IMG/VR virus record: IMGVR_UViG_3300035070_002626
Span: 186,001-250,000 of that record
DNA: 64,000 bases
Direction: 5' to 3' (one strand)
DNA from: a virus
Below are positions 10,856 to 56,749 of this stretch, in pieces (position 1 is the stretch's first letter; every line of letters starts with the position of its first letter). Below the pieces are notes generated by a model, which saw only the letters and a program-made list of their open reading frames with translations, did no database searches and was not told where the DNA came from. The translations under genes were made by a program, and so were the position numbers.

Positions 10856-11308
10856 TTAAATTTCAATGTCTTCCATCCCGGCAGTGCGAAGTCTTACAAT
10901 GTGCCCCATTTGCCATTGCTTGGTATCTAAGCCCTTCATGATTCCTAGATACCTATTGCGCATTAGCGCAACTTCATTGATCAACGTTTCGAAGTCGATT
11001 ACTTCATCTTCGCCGTCAACATATTTTTCAGCATCTCTACTGCTCAATGCACGGCCGTAGTTTTCTAGATATTTTTGAAAATGCTTGCGCCGAATCTTGC
11101 GTAGTTGTATGTTAAGAAAGTTGAGCACCGCTTCAATTTCTTGAAGCTGGTTAAAGCGATGCTCAGTAATGCCCGGTAGGGCACTAATATTCTTTTCGAC
11201 TATACCACTAACTTGGCATTCACGTTTTGCGGCAAGTATTTCTTGCTCAAAATGTGTAATAAACCCTGGAATATTTGCAAGATTTTGAGTAACACGACTA
11301 TACCACAT
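10856..11308 (-). CDS. uvsY: UvsY-like recombination mediator
   Basis: 150 residues (T4 UvsY has 137). It is mostly helical with a basic middle (QLRKIRRKHFQKYLENYG) and ends with a helix of the form GLDTKQWQMGHIVRLRTAG, which lines up with the C-terminal self-association helix of T4 UvsY (SRGFAIKHIQDMRAFEAG). UvsY loads the UvsX recombinase on gp32-covered single-stranded DNA. The position just downstream of uvsX, with one small gene between, supports the call. Similarity is weak by eye. Confidence 0.68.
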   Translation of the reverse strand: MWYSRVTQNLANIPGFITHFEQEILAAKRECQVSGIVEKNISALPGITEHRFNQLQEIEAVLNFLNIQLRKIRRKHFQKYLENYGRALSSRDAEKYVDGEDEVIDFETLINEVALMRNRYLGIMKGLDTKQWQMGHIVRLRTAGMEDIEI

Positions 11309-11609: not shown

Positions 11610-12704
11610 TTATACTTGTGCCTCTTCGATTGCTTGTGTTAGTTCTTCGTCTACTAGCTCATCTTCAATTACTTCGGCTAGTTCTTCTACTTTGTTAAAG
11701 TCCAACATAACTTTATCTAAACACCCGTCTTCGTTGCGTTCCCATGCCTTACGGAATTGTAGGATTTCTTCGCCGGTGCTTGTTACAAAACGCAGTCTGT
11801 TGCCTTGTTTGGTTAGCAAGCCAGTTGATTCTGCTAAGTCAACAAGTCCACTATATGGATTCATGCCTGTTTCATAAGGAATCTTAACTTGCACACTTTC
11901 AAAAGGTTTAGCATAACGTGTTTTCATAACTTTACATGCTGCACGAATACCTTTTACTTGAGAGATCTTGTTGCCATCTTCATCCTCTTTTAGTTTGAGC
12001 TTGCGCATAGCAACAACAATCGAACTTGCATAGATAAAGCCTTGCCCACCCGAGATCTTATCGTCTGGATCAAACATGTCTTGTGATGCATATGTGTGAT
12101 TGGTACACACCATGCCAACGTTATAGCTACCAAACATGTTAACAGTATTACGAACAAGTGCAGTAAGTGCCTTAGGTTTACGCCCCAAGTCACCTTTCAT
12201 GTCACCAGCTTCAAACTGGTTAACGTCAGTGGGTGTTAGCATCATGCCCAACGAGTCAATGACAAACAACACTTTAGGACGCTCACCGTCAGGCATTGCT
12301 TTATAATCTTTCATGAATGTTGAAATTGTTTTTGCAACATCGTCGATCATGCTCATTGCTAGTTTAAGCAATTTGCTTTCATCTGTGTCAACGCCTAGTG
12401 CTTGCAGCCATGCTTCGTCTAGTGCGTTTTCTGTGTCAACAAGCACAACAAAAATGCCTTGTTGCTGTGCATGTTTTACAATATTACCAGCAGCAAAATA
12501 ACTTTTGCCTGCACCTGATTCACCTGCAAACACTGTAACTTTACCCAGTGGGCAACCTTTGTGAAAGTCTCCCGAGATAAGATAGTTTAGTGCATAGTTA
12601 CCTGTGCTGATCCAATCAGTTGGATCGTTAAAGCCGATTGACAATCCGTCAATGCTTTTTGTAATGTCCTTGCGGAATTTTGAGATATCAAATGGTTTTG
12701 CCAT
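11610..12704 (-). CDS. uvsX: UvsX RecA-like recombinase
   Basis: 364 residues (T4 UvsX has 391). The Walker A motif is GESGAGKS at 61-68; the Walker B strand is VLFVIDSLGMM; TNHTYAS and GGQGFIYASSIVVAMRK follow as in the RecA core. UvsX forms filaments on single-stranded DNA and drives strand exchange for recombination-dependent replication and repair. Ahead of the start is AAGGACACAAC. The C-terminal 30 residues are acidic, as in T4 UvsX and RecA. It lies downstream of gp32 and a hairpin. Confidence 0.95.
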   Translation of the reverse strand: MAKPFDISKFRKDITKSIDGLSIGFNDPTDWISTGNYALNYLISGDFHKGCPLGKVTVFAGESGAGKSYFAAGNIVKHAQQQGIFVVLVDTENALDEAWLQALGVDTDESKLLKLAMSMIDDVAKTISTFMKDYKAMPDGERPKVLFVIDSLGMMLTPTDVNQFEAGDMKGDLGRKPKALTALVRNTVNMFGSYNVGMVCTNHTYASQDMFDPDDKISGGQGFIYASSIVVAMRKLKLKEDEDGNKISQVKGIRAACKVMKTRYAKPFESVQVKIPYETGMNPYSGLVDLAESTGLLTKQGNRLRFVTSTGEEILQFRKAWERNEDGCLDKVMLDFNKVEELAEVIEDELVDEELTQAIEEAQV

Positions 12705-12793: not shown

Positions 12794-13792
12794 TTAGTTT
12801 GCAGCTTGGCGGCTGCGGATCATAGCCAGAATATCATCTGCTTTACTACTAGGCGCAGCTTCAGCTGATGGTGCCGGAGCTACTGGAGTCTCGGCTGCTG
12901 GTGCAACATCTGTCCAACCACTGTCAGTTGATGTTGATTCTGCCACAGGAGTTGCTGCTGGTGCTGCCACAGGAGTTGCTGCTGGTGCTGCACTTCCTGC
13001 TGGTGCTTGCATGCCCGCTGGGCGGAAGTATTGCCCCCAACGTTCTGCATCGTATGATTGACCGTCAACACTAGCTTCAAACATTTCCTTCATTACTTTG
13101 ATAGCCGTTTCATCTGGGCGTTTTGGTAAGAAGTCAGCCAAGTTGTACAAACCTTGCGATTCGATTGCTTCAGCTTCTGTTGCAGTAAGTGGTGTTTCTT
13201 TACGGGCCCACTTGCTTGTTGAATAGTCAGCATATCCGCCTTTGGCTGTTTTGCTGATACGGAAGTCCAGCCCACGCTCATAGTCAGTTGGAAGTTCTTC
13301 TAGTTCTGGATCCATCAACGCTGATTTAATAGTCTGGAAGATCTGAGGACCAATAATAAAACGTCGAATTGCTTTGTCACTGTTGTCATCAGAGATTGGA
13401 TTCTCACGTACAAAACCTTGCATGATGTACGAACGTTTTTTCCAATACTTACGACCCATGTCTTCAAGACTTTTGTCTTTAAACCACTGACGTACTTCGG
13501 TGAGAATTGGACAAGTTTCGCCCCACATCTCAACACATGGCACTTGTACTATAACATTCTTACTATCCATTTGACCTTTGATGCCATTGAATGGAAGTTT
13601 GATCATTGCACGTTCCATCCAAAAGAACGTATTGCCGTTATCTTCATCAGGAAGGAAGCGAAGCACTGCGCTGTCGCCTTCGTTCATATTCCAATGTGGG
13701 TAAATTGCGCCATCGCCACCGGATGACTGATTGTTGCCTTGCTTGTTGTCTGCCGCTGCAAGACGGGCGCGGATTTCTGCTAATGAAGCCAT
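12794..13792 (-). CDS. 32: Single-stranded DNA-binding protein gp32
   Basis: 332 residues (T4 gp32 has 301). The basic N-terminus (SLAEIRARLAAADNKQ) corresponds to the B domain for cooperative binding. The core includes YPHWNMNEGDSAVLRFLPD, a CVEMWGETCP segment where T4 has its zinc cysteines, and KYWKKRSYIMQGFV, as in marine gp32 proteins. A linker of Ala/Pro/Val repeats (residues about 265-315) leads to the C-terminal tail. A full zinc ligand set is not evident. AGGAGA lies at 13799-13804; the leader upstream holds repeated hairpins. Confidence 0.92.
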   Translation of the reverse strand: MASLAEIRARLAAADNKQGNNQSSGGDGAIYPHWNMNEGDSAVLRFLPDEDNGNTFFWMERAMIKLPFNGIKGQMDSKNVIVQVPCVEMWGETCPILTEVRQWFKDKSLEDMGRKYWKKRSYIMQGFVRENPISDDNSDKAIRRFIIGPQIFQTIKSALMDPELEELPTDYERGLDFRISKTAKGGYADYSTSKWARKETPLTATEAEAIESQGLYNLADFLPKRPDETAIKVMKEMFEASVDGQSYDAERWGQYFRPAGMQAPAGSAAPAATPVAAPAATPVAESTSTDSGWTDVAPAAETPVAPAPSAEAAPSSKADDILAMIRSRQAAN

Positions 13793-13807
13793 TTGTATTC
13801 TCCTATA

Positions 13808-13899
13808 TGCCTACGAGTAGCAACTACTACTCTTTTCATTTGCCTACGATACGCAACTACGTATCTGTGTATGCCTATATACACCGTACTAGTATATAC
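13808..13899 (-). promoter_or_regulatory. Tandem covarying hairpins in the gp32 leader
   Basis: Three units about 32 bases apart, each beginning with TGCCTA on the plus strand (13808, 13841, 13872) followed by a hairpin. Unit 1: GAGTAG-CAACTA-CTACTC (13815-13832). Unit 2: GATACG-CAACTA-CGTATC (13848-13865). Unit 3: ATATACAC-CGTACTA-GTATATAC (13877-13899, with G-U pairs in RNA). Stems differ but stay paired while loop and flank are kept. T4 gp32 represses its own translation through leader structure, so a gp32 operator is the natural guess. Confidence 0.75.
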
Positions 13900-13919
13900 G
13901 CTTTTATTTAGTCCGTCAA
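13891..13919 (-). promoter_or_regulatory. Sigma-70-type promoter of gp32
   Basis: On the minus strand, TTGACG (13914-13919) and TATACT (13891-13896) are 17 bases apart. A transcript from here would begin inside the third leader hairpin. A late-type ACTAAATA at 13905-13912 lies in the spacer and would give a longer leader containing all three hairpins. Confidence 0.6.
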
Positions 13920-15114: not shown

Positions 15115-17349
15115 TTATCCTCGAGCTAGTGTTAATAATCTATCTAGCTCTGATTCGATCATTGGGTCACGCTCTGCTTTTAGTGCAGGTTTTCCTGTGT
15201 CAATGTCTGTTACTTCTGTCATATCTTCATCGTCGAGATCTTGTTGATTTGCTTTAGTAAGAGGCTCTTCCTGCGTCGGATCTTCATTTATGGATTCATT
15301 TGCACTAATAAACTTTTCGCCTTGTTTCTCAATCAACTTTTTAAGTGCAACTGCTCCTAGCACGAGTGCAACTGCTGCGCCAATTTCAAATTTGTTGTCG
15401 ATGAGCATTTGTGCATATTCTTCACCAATTGCACTTTTAACCCAATCCCATCCTTGATCCATATAATATGCCCCAGTTGCGCCTGCTGCAATTTTACCAG
15501 CATGTTTTTTTAGTAGCCATTTTAGTACTGGCCATGCACCTCTTGCTGCTACAAATTTAAGAACCCATACTGCTGCTGCTACAAGTGGAGCCATTTCTGT
15601 TAGTTGAGCTTCACTCATAAACGGACGCAATTCTCTTGCGCGGCTTGGGTGCTTTAACATTCTTAAGCCTTTAGATTCACGTTGTCTTATAACTTCCGGA
15701 GTTACGCCCATTGCACTTGCAACCTGTTGCAGTGTGTATTCTTTTTTAAAAGGCCCTATACCAAATCTTGCTTGTATAACTTTTTTAATTTTTACATCAT
15801 CAATTGCATCTAGTTGTGCTGCTAAAACTTTTTTTAATTTTGCACCGTCGACTCCGCTAAAATCAAAATCATCAATGGTGCCGCCAGGCATATCTACTTG
15901 TGTTGCTTTTTTGGTAATATCTTTAGCATCTACTGTATCGTCTGTTGGGATACGTACACCTTTGTATTGAGGACTGTTACCTGCATATGGCATTGCTTCT
16001 CCTAGTGGCTTAAAGCCTCTAGTACTGCCAGTTGGTTCTCCGTTTGGTGCAATTTCTCGTGTGCCACCGAGGTTGCTAAGTGGTCTAGCCTGTGGGCGCA
16101 TGCTACTTGGTCGTGCCATCGGACGCAGGCTAGTCATTGGTGCATTTTCACCAAGCTCGATGTTGAATTCTTTGAGTCTGGCTAGTACCAGTGGTCTACA
16201 ATCGGCATCGGGATTATCCAAACCCATTTCGTAAATGTCATCAAATAGTTCATCGTCGCCAATTAGTCCGTACAGTTGCTCAGTTGCAAATTCTCCAGCT
16301 GGGCCACAATGCAATGGTTCTTTCATAAGTTCAGCTAGTTCTGCCATTTGTTCTGGTGTGCCAGGCAGTGCCCATGTACCTTCGGTAATACTGTCTGCCC
16401 ACTGTTCAAATACGTCAGCTTCTTTCATGTTAGTTTCCTTTATTTTTGCTATTATTGGCAAAGCTTCTTCAATTCGACTATCAAGTGTGTTTGTTGAAAA
16501 CACTTCTCTTACCTTGTCAATGGTTTCATCAAGATCAGTAATTTCCATTGGATCCCATGATGCAAAGATATCTTTATAGCCCTTACGACTAATCATTTTC
16601 TTTGCTTTGCGTTTAAGGTCTTTATAGTGCCTAACTGCATCTTCAGCAATGCTTACTGCATCAACATTTTGACCAAACGATTTACTTTTAGTAGCTCTGA
16701 TAAATTTACTTAATGTTGCTATTTCATTAACTGTGTCACTGATGTGTTGACCAATCTGATCGTATGGATTACCACCTTCAGTTACATGCCTTGCCATTGC
16801 TTTACCGCCGCTTATACTACGGAATGGCATCTTAAATCTTTCGCCTTGACTGTTTTCAACAAACAAACTTTCAATGTTTCTAAAACGTGCTTCGCCTTCG
16901 CCTAGTTTTCTTGAATGTTTGATAATAAGCTTTGCTGGGCCTTGTTTATTATAACTAGTTTTGTTTGTACCGTTCCAGCCTTCAGCTAACTGGGCCATAC
17001 TTTTCATTGAATACTTTAATCTATTCATGTTGTTAAGGCTAAATGTATACAAGTTACGCTTTGCTATATTTCTAATAACTGCAAGAAAATCATACCAATC
17101 ACCGCGGTCATCACGCTCCATTGTGCGTCCGATACTGTCGCCGTAGTATACTTCAATTTTGTCTTCGCCGTCTATTAGAATGACTACTGTCCCGTAATCT
17201 TTGTTTTCAGTTTTAAAATTAAACGAAATCAAGTCAGCATCAGCTGCATTCACAGTAGGCTTGCCCATAGCGTTAAGTGCTTTAGGGTCAAAGTCTCGTG
17301 TTACTATTGTGTCAAAAATTTGTTGTGCTGCGTTGTTATCTTGTGCCAT
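15115..17349 (-). CDS. Virion-type protein with sigma-70 region 4 domain and membrane segments
   Basis: 744 residues. Residues 1-400 resemble a large protein family of marine T4-like virions (DYGTVVILIDGE, DWYDFLAVIRNIAKRNLYTF, then EPLHCGPAGEFATEQLYGLIGDD; from memory). Residues 405-460 are a Pro/Arg/Met-rich linker. Residues 518-578 match sigma-70 region 4: ARFGIG, then YTLQQVASAMGVTPEVIRQ and LKHPSRARELRPF, which lines up with E. coli RpoD RFGI...YTLEEV...VTRERIRQ...LRHPSR...LRSF. Residues 586-604 and 654-670 are hydrophobic; the tail is acidic. It lies downstream of gp17. It could be packaged and act on host RNA polymerase. Confidence 0.75.
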   Translation of the reverse strand: MAQDNNAAQQIFDTIVTRDFDPKALNAMGKPTVNAADADLISFNFKTENKDYGTVVILIDGEDKIEVYYGDSIGRTMERDDRGDWYDFLAVIRNIAKRNLYTFSLNNMNRLKYSMKSMAQLAEGWNGTNKTSYNKQGPAKLIIKHSRKLGEGEARFRNIESLFVENSQGERFKMPFRSISGGKAMARHVTEGGNPYDQIGQHISDTVNEIATLSKFIRATKSKSFGQNVDAVSIAEDAVRHYKDLKRKAKKMISRKGYKDIFASWDPMEITDLDETIDKVREVFSTNTLDSRIEEALPIIAKIKETNMKEADVFEQWADSITEGTWALPGTPEQMAELAELMKEPLHCGPAGEFATEQLYGLIGDDELFDDIYEMGLDNPDADCRPLVLARLKEFNIELGENAPMTSLRPMARPSSMRPQARPLSNLGGTREIAPNGEPTGSTRGFKPLGEAMPYAGNSPQYKGVRIPTDDTVDAKDITKKATQVDMPGGTIDDFDFSGVDGAKLKKVLAAQLDAIDDVKIKKVIQARFGIGPFKKEYTLQQVASAMGVTPEVIRQRESKGLRMLKHPSRARELRPFMSEAQLTEMAPLVAAAVWVLKFVAARGAWPVLKWLLKKHAGKIAAGATGAYYMDQGWDWVKSAIGEEYAQMLIDNKFEIGAAVALVLGAVALKKLIEKQGEKFISANESINEDPTQEEPLTKANQQDLDDEDMTEVTDIDTGKPALKAERDPMIESELDRLLTLARG

Positions 17350-56009: not shown

Positions 56010-56660
56010 TTAACCGTATTGTGGGTTCTCAATCTGTACTAGATTAATAGTTGTTGTTGATCCTTCGGCACCTGATTTTTCAATTGTGTCATCAAGAACA
56101 TTAAAGTAGTTAACCAATACTTTTGCGTTAGCAAAGTTGATTGCATACTTGTTAGTCATACGCTTGATACGCACTAGAGAAGAACCTTCGTCAGCATAAG
56201 TTACTGTCATAGTATTAGCTGTTAATGCTGCATCAGCTAAATCAGCTAGTACACAAACACCGATTGTATCTGCTGTGCCTGTACCTGCACCTACACCGGT
56301 TGCTTTAAATGTACTACCAACGCCTGCATCTGGGCCTGCACCAATTGATTGCCAGTCAGTATTGCCAAGTGCTGTAATGATGTATAGATTGTCAACAATA
56401 AACGAACCAGCTGTAACGCCAGTCGAATCGCCAACTAGGTATTTTGTTGAACCTTTTTGACGAATAATATAGCCGTCTGCTTCAGCAACTGTGCCGATTT
56501 TAACACGACATGTTGTTGTTGGAAACTCTCCACTTGATAGATTTGAATTACCGCCAACTTGACCGAAGTATAGCTCGCCTGCTGGTGTACCATTTCCGTC
56601 TGGATTGTTAAAGCCAGCGTCTCTAGTATCAGAAATTTTAATTTTGAGAGGACGTCCCAT
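56010..56660 (-). CDS. MGRP-type virion structural protein
   Basis: 216 residues. The start MGRPLKIKISDTRDAGFNNP and the following beta-rich Gly/Thr sequence, with CRVKIGTVAEADGYIIRQKG near residue 50, resembles structural proteins of marine phages beginning MGRP (from memory). The C-terminal SSLVRIKRMTNKYAINFANA closes the fold. It is separated from gp23 by a strong terminator and has its own late-type motif and a leader with two hairpins. A head decoration or tail role is possible. Confidence 0.65.
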   Translation of the reverse strand: MGRPLKIKISDTRDAGFNNPDGNGTPAGELYFGQVGGNSNLSSGEFPTTTCRVKIGTVAEADGYIIRQKGSTKYLVGDSTGVTAGSFIVDNLYIITALGNTDWQSIGAGPDAGVGSTFKATGVGAGTGTADTIGVCVLADLADAALTANTMTVTYADEGSSLVRIKRMTNKYAINFANAKVLVNYFNVLDDTIEKSGAEGSTTTINLVQIENPQYG

Positions 56661-56687
56661 GTTGTTTTCTCCTTGTAGAAGTCCGAT

Positions 56688-56722
56688 GTAGGTTCTAGCC
56701 TACTACGCGGATGGTGTTCCGC
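56688..56722 (-). promoter_or_regulatory. Two small hairpins in the MGRP-gene leader
   Basis: GTAGG-TTCTAG-CCTAC (56688-56703) and GCGGA-TGGTGT-TCCGC (56707-56722), each five base pairs with a six-base loop, three bases apart. They lie between the late-type motif at 56750 and the ATG at 56660, and resemble in size the six-base-loop hairpins ahead of gp32. Confidence 0.45.
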
Positions 56723-56749
56723 ATAAAACGCAGTATTACGTTAGAAAAG

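Follow-up and report, generated by a model that had tools for sequence, protein, structure and literature searches.

The window, which is the whole 64,000-nucleotide stretch analyzed here, belongs to a virus record of 299,910 bases and carries a gp32-like single-strand DNA-binding protein gene followed by uvsX and, further on, a UvsY-like gene. The assignment of this gene comes from PHROG (family 1192); the Pfam gp32 match falls slightly under the cut-off. By gp32, jumbo phages such as PA5oct come closest among the isolates; the PA5oct protein is 55% identical to that of the window across 77% of its length. A 744-residue protein encoded at 15115-17349 (minus strand) combines a virion structural PHROG match with a sigma-70 region 4 domain near residues 522–567. 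The features relevant to the gp32 leader are as follows, with the evidence for each in parentheses.

10856-11308: UvsY-like gene, further beyond uvsX
11610-12704: uvsX, next after gp32
12794-13792, minus strand: gp32-like single-strand DNA-binding protein gene, 332 aa (PHROG 1192, E 3e-66)
13800-13804, minus strand: Shine-Dalgarno AGGAG of gp32 (sequence)
13808-13812, minus strand: AGGCA copy 3, closest to the start codon, 2 nt 3' of hairpin 1 (motif enrichment)
13815-13832, minus strand: hairpin 1, GAGUAG-UAGUUG-CUACUC (covariation; covariance-model match 13806-13836, E 1.5e-6, the window units being part of the model)
13841-13845, minus strand: AGGCA copy 2, 2 nt 3' of hairpin 2 (motif enrichment)
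13848-13865, minus strand: hairpin 2, GAUACG-UAGUUG-CGUAUC (covariation; covariance-model match 13839-13879, E 1e-10, the window units being part of the model)
13872-13876, minus strand: AGGCA copy 1 (sequence; motif enrichment)
13873-13901, minus strand: promoter-associated dyad over the -10 box (sequence; leader comparison)
13891-13919, minus strand: sigma70-like promoter, TTGACG-17-TATACT, whose spacer contains CTAAATAA, like the T4 late promoter (TATAAATA)

Hairpins and promoter dyad of the gp32 leader

On the gp32 mRNA strand the two hairpins are 33 nt apart and each is followed by GTAGGCA. In a fold of the leader both stems form with a pairing probability of ~1. The evidence for the hairpins is comparative, since the window alone is unremarkable: 13 of 100 window-only shuffles gave at least two hairpin matches at three mismatches, so that the pair is not very improbable, and the fold of the whole leader has z = -0.9, the stability of the complete leader being not unusual. 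We searched 2.9 million IMG/VR viral contigs with the pattern GTAGTTGCNNNNNGTAGGCA, in which the loop, the closing pair and GTAGGCA were fixed, while all of the 5' arm outside the closing base was left free, as were the outer five bases of the 3' arm. Of the 109 matches, 71 form all six pairs, one forms five and the other 37 form at most four, which we take to separate real elements from chance ones. Apart from a few before another gene, the real matches are located in gp32 leaders, and they have the stems GAGTAG, GATACG and GATGAG; GATGCG and GGTGTG were seen at the position of the second hairpin.

The initial annotation had read the stems GAGTAG/CTACTC and GATACG/CGTATC as a case of compensatory change and hence as a conserved RNA structure upstream of the gp32 ribosome-binding site, and both points are borne out. 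In 15 distinct units 100% of the stem cells are paired, and four of the six pairs have changed on both sides (double compensatory changes). The covariation score is 0.613, compared to 0.165 for shuffled units and at most 0.143 when the units were slid, and G-U pairs are tolerated in the stems. Loss of the hairpins or breakage of the stems in relatives would have spoken against such a structure; hairpin 1 is retained down to 71% gp32 identity, and its stem is unbroken in these relatives (71–100% identical). Turnover of hairpin 2 is seen already at about 90% identity. Judged by this covariation, hairpins 1 and 2 are true RNA hairpins. An Rfam search of the gp32 leader matched no known family. 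Elsewhere in the window, at 56658-56743 (minus strand), the Rfam freshwater-2 cis-regulatory RNA (RF02980, 62.3 bits) is found right at the start of a 216-aa gene with no assignment.

The third of the "three tandem hairpins" originally proposed did not hold up alongside the other two. The unit at 13873-13901 is without the TAGTTG loop and shares bases with the -10 hexamer of the promoter TTGACG-17-TATACT, and for these reasons the three-hairpin model was rejected. The unit is a dyad of the form TATAC...GTG, present in 35 of 52 nonredundant gp32 leaders where 1.6 would be expected after shuffling; its outer stems vary, and a T-run follows it in some relatives. It is a distinct, conserved, promoter-associated element. 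Perhaps it serves as a terminator-like hairpin, or as the 5'-end hairpin of transcripts begun upstream. Transcripts starting at the sigma70-like promoter would lack its 5' arm. TAAATA within the promoter spacer is found in 48 of the 52 leaders (about 11 expected after shuffling); it resembles the T4 late promoter. In four gp32 leaders (L030, L054, L077 and L109) the -10 box lies within a long dyad followed by a T-run, such that the promoter is embedded in a terminator-like hairpin.

AGGCA arrays before three gene families

The hairpin was also considered as the defining element of these leaders and was rejected. A covariance-model search of the relatives' leaders, as had been suggested, did recover the subclade of the window, but beyond it model R1 matched only one DnaE-like leader, and the UAGUUG hairpin is missing from most leaders across the clade. 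What is constant was overlooked at first: the gp32 leaders of about 75 relatives revealed repeats of AGGCA, which are common to two further gene families. The element has the consensus A-U/C-AGGCA-A-C/U, with a short invariant core and drifting flanks, and AGGCA occurs in 43 of 45 nonredundant gp32 leaders, compared to 12% of background windows. From these comparisons, it is the AGGCA array, on the sense strand and close to the start codon, that stays constant across the clade, and not the hairpins.

We performed a controlled count on leaders of 70 nt, of which 50 nt or more had to be intergenic, after removal of redundancy at 85%. At least two copies of AGGCA were present in 53/65 leaders of gp32, 21/23 of a DnaE-like gene and 33/43 of a ~110-aa protein, as opposed to 1/682 leaders of other genes at the same loci; P values for such leaders are inflated by their phylogenetic relatedness. 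Antisense AGGCA was seen in 0/65, 2/23 and 0/43 leaders, respectively. AGGCA as the general ribosome-binding site of these phages was rejected in view of the 1/682 figure and of the AGGAG/AAGGA-type sites that other window genes use. Genome-wide counts were obtained by pattern searches. In 27 phage records, noncoding AGGCA-AGGCA-ATG arrangements before credible genes belonged to these three families only, and the other AGGCA clusters were mostly within coding frames, with no further recurrent gene downstream. The three genes are non-homologous, hence the shared array is not explained by common descent of the leader. Within the record of the window, which may be incomplete, no gene other than gp32 was found to have the array. 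Among isolates, none of 12 phages has it before gp32 (GAP32 alone has two scattered copies far from the ATG), which makes the array a trait of the clade. Our literature search, whose coverage mostly excludes subscription papers, found nothing relevant on the motif.

The strand bias bears on whether the repeats act as DNA or RNA. The initial annotation had raised a DNA operator as an alternative. A transcription factor would then bind the TGCCTA/AGGCA repeats as double-stranded DNA, and the conserved dyad over the -10 region of the gp32 promoter would suit this. However, the copies are downstream of the promoter, inside the transcribed leader and extending almost to the ATG, they are tied to the start codon and they have one orientation (118 sense and 3 antisense copies in gp32 leaders). 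The tolerance of G-U pairs in the stems likewise argues against this alternative, which we regard as distinctly unlikely. The position at the ribosome-binding site, the strand bias and the G-U tolerance together favor an RNA operator acting on translation. Short invariant cores with drifting flanks, on the sense strand only and near start codons, would also be expected if a small RNA containing UUGCCU, rather than a protein, recognized these sites by seed matching. Yet several copies per leader at regular spacing are unusual among small-RNA targets, and this explanation is highly improbable.

The second family came to light through one hairpin match that precedes not gp32 but a gene with Pfam DNA_pol3_alpha and finger domains. 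Its DnaE-like relatives are mostly without the hairpin but have AGGCA arrays ending a few bases before the ATG; the last copy is likewise within a few nucleotides of the ATG in many leaders of the small protein. In one phage (G024) the DnaE-like leader is nearly identical to the gp32 unit of the same phage and may be a copied segment of it. The DnaE-like gene was not found in the 299,910 bases of the window's own, possibly incomplete, record. At least two T4-like jumbo phages (G024 and G026) encode the 564-aa DNA polymerase III alpha-like protein (L224, L225, L234-L313) alongside a family B polymerase. The array was not seen to extend to the latter (gp43): its leaders in the two phages checked, G000 and G026, have no AGGCA array.

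The third family, the ~110-aa protein (MATEKLFTVAGT family, L385-L464), was exposed by the pattern search of the records and has no Pfam or PHROG match. Homologues are present in 8 of the 9 AGGCA-bearing phage records looked at (6 of 7 searched, and two more). The protein was found in no isolate phage and is well conserved in uncultured jumbo phages. In the record of the window, its gene follows close behind another gene and has no AGGCA before it. The first 60 residues are modeled confidently in the predicted structure. Comparison with PDB folds gave no convincing match, the best VIA-align result having Z 4.2 (59 residues, 5.2 Å) and DdrB having Z 3.9 (39 residues, 2.0 Å).

In gp32 leaders, neighboring AGGCA copies with no hairpin between them are mostly 9–17 nt apart, and copies 25–34 nt apart often enclose a hairpin that ends 0–2 nt before the next copy. 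When these hairpins are looped out, mostly 10–15 nt remain between copies. This is near the hairpin-free spacing, so the hairpins look like spacers that keep AGGCA in register. For 14 of 34 long spacers the hairpin has p < 0.05, with a combined p of 2e-7 that is inflated by related leaders. The UAGUUG loop is fixed in the subclade of the window, and the hairpins may for this reason be an added recognition feature there as well.

A candidate mRNA operator and its possible regulators

We propose, with a probability of roughly 60%, that the gp32 leader acts in cis as a repeated mRNA operator, in which one trans-acting factor on the AGGCA copies adjusts translation. Directly seen are an array in sense orientation before three unrelated genes, hairpins that covary, and the spacing pattern. 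The specific part would be single-stranded AGGCA, in two or three copies spaced by about 10–16 nt near the ribosome-binding site and, in some genes, overlapping it. Where the gaps are longer, a small hairpin would take up the slack and abut the next copy; in the subclade of the window this would be the covarying stem with the fixed UAGUUG loop. A trans-acting factor is implied by the occurrence of one element before several genes. Such a factor would bind the copies, probably side by side, and compete with the 30S subunit, and it is probably a translational repressor. The outcome would be an adjusted synthesis of gp32 and, in relatives, of the polymerase III alpha-like and ~110-aa proteins as well. 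It is also conceivable that the leader stabilizes the mRNA or provides a ribosome standby site or enhancer, with no dedicated regulator: its hairpins and AGG-containing repeats could block RNase E or recruit ribosomes, and stability is a known property of the T4 gene 32 mRNA (PMC535899). The confinement of the array to three gene families among hundreds of leaders makes this unlikely.

The main candidates for the binding factor of the proposed operator are gp32, on the precedent of T4, and the ~110-aa protein, whose own leader has the array in many relatives. Both are special cases of the operator reading, and our confidence in each is included within that given above, not added to it. In T4, gp32 and gp43 are autogenous translational repressors with separate operators, and RegA represses many early genes (PMC3014915, PMC535899). 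T4 and RB69 gp32 repress themselves through a structured nucleation site followed by short single-stranded repeats that run up to the ribosome-binding site (PMC535899, PMC3014915), a layout similar to that of the present leader. On it, gp32 would nucleate on the hairpins and spread over AGGCA and the ribosome-binding site, in line with the cooperative gp32 site that the initial annotation had suggested. There are differences, however. The T4 repeats are UUAAA/UAAA over the ribosome-binding site and those here are AGGCA; the hairpin loops of the present leader have no partner of four or more Watson–Crick bases anywhere in the leader, as a 5' H-type pseudoknot of the T4 gene 32 kind would entail; and the array is common to other genes, mostly with no such hairpin, just as most leaders of the clade have none. 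Moreover, gp32-type OB folds have little sequence specificity. Since the array also precedes two other genes, the factor that binds it probably controls several genes in trans and is not necessarily gp32, and we hold autogenous control by gp32 to be a possibility at well under even odds.

The ~110-aa protein as a repressor of gp32, of the DnaE-like gene and of itself through AGGCA would recall T4 RegA in its size and in its multiple targets, RegA being one small phage protein that acts on unstructured RNA at or just before start codons. The array in 33 of 43 of its own leaders and the co-occurrence with AGGCA-bearing records are in keeping with this role. A search of nine records for the RegA family (PF01818), which had no positive control, gave no match. 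Against it stand the array-free gene copy of the window's genome and the lack of a recognizable RNA-binding family or fold. RegA sites are A+U rich with no clear consensus (PMC3014915), and the present element has a precise 5-base core in repeats. We consider this assignment doubtful.

Two other systems offer partial parallels. In the gene 43 operator of T4 and RB69, too, a small hairpin of 18 or 16 nt, with a conserved loop, precedes the ribosome-binding site of a replication gene (PMC3014915), but that loop is UAAC rather than UAGUUG, the present hairpin is joined to AGGCA repeats, and in two of these phages the leader of the family B polymerase gene is without the element. STAXI is an RNA element that occurs in two or three copies near DNA-handling genes, including those of single-strand DNA-binding proteins (PMC2864571). 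Its units, in contrast, are pseudoknots, and its Rfam covariance model did not match the gp32 leader even at E 10.

The sequence comparisons point to a previously undescribed common control of replication-protein synthesis. The sharing by three non-homologous genes indicates a factor acting in trans, and one candidate for it is a small orphan protein. Tentatively, jumbo T4-like phages might have a new post-transcriptional regulon, in which a single new regulator that binds RNA, perhaps the ~110-aa orphan protein, reads the AGGCA arrays of the single-strand DNA-binding protein, of a second DNA polymerase and of itself, in place of the separate autogenous operators and RegA of T4. According to a review, the autocontrol of gp32 needs to be studied across diverse T4-related phages, and RB49 does not have the T4 operator (PMC3014915); the AGGCA array offers a large uncultured clade a concrete candidate operator that can be tested. 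A different short repeat, ACACAATT-like and in about four copies, lies before gp32 of Agrobacterium phage Atu_ph07 (L087, leader before 1201), and clades may each have their own gp32-leader repeat.
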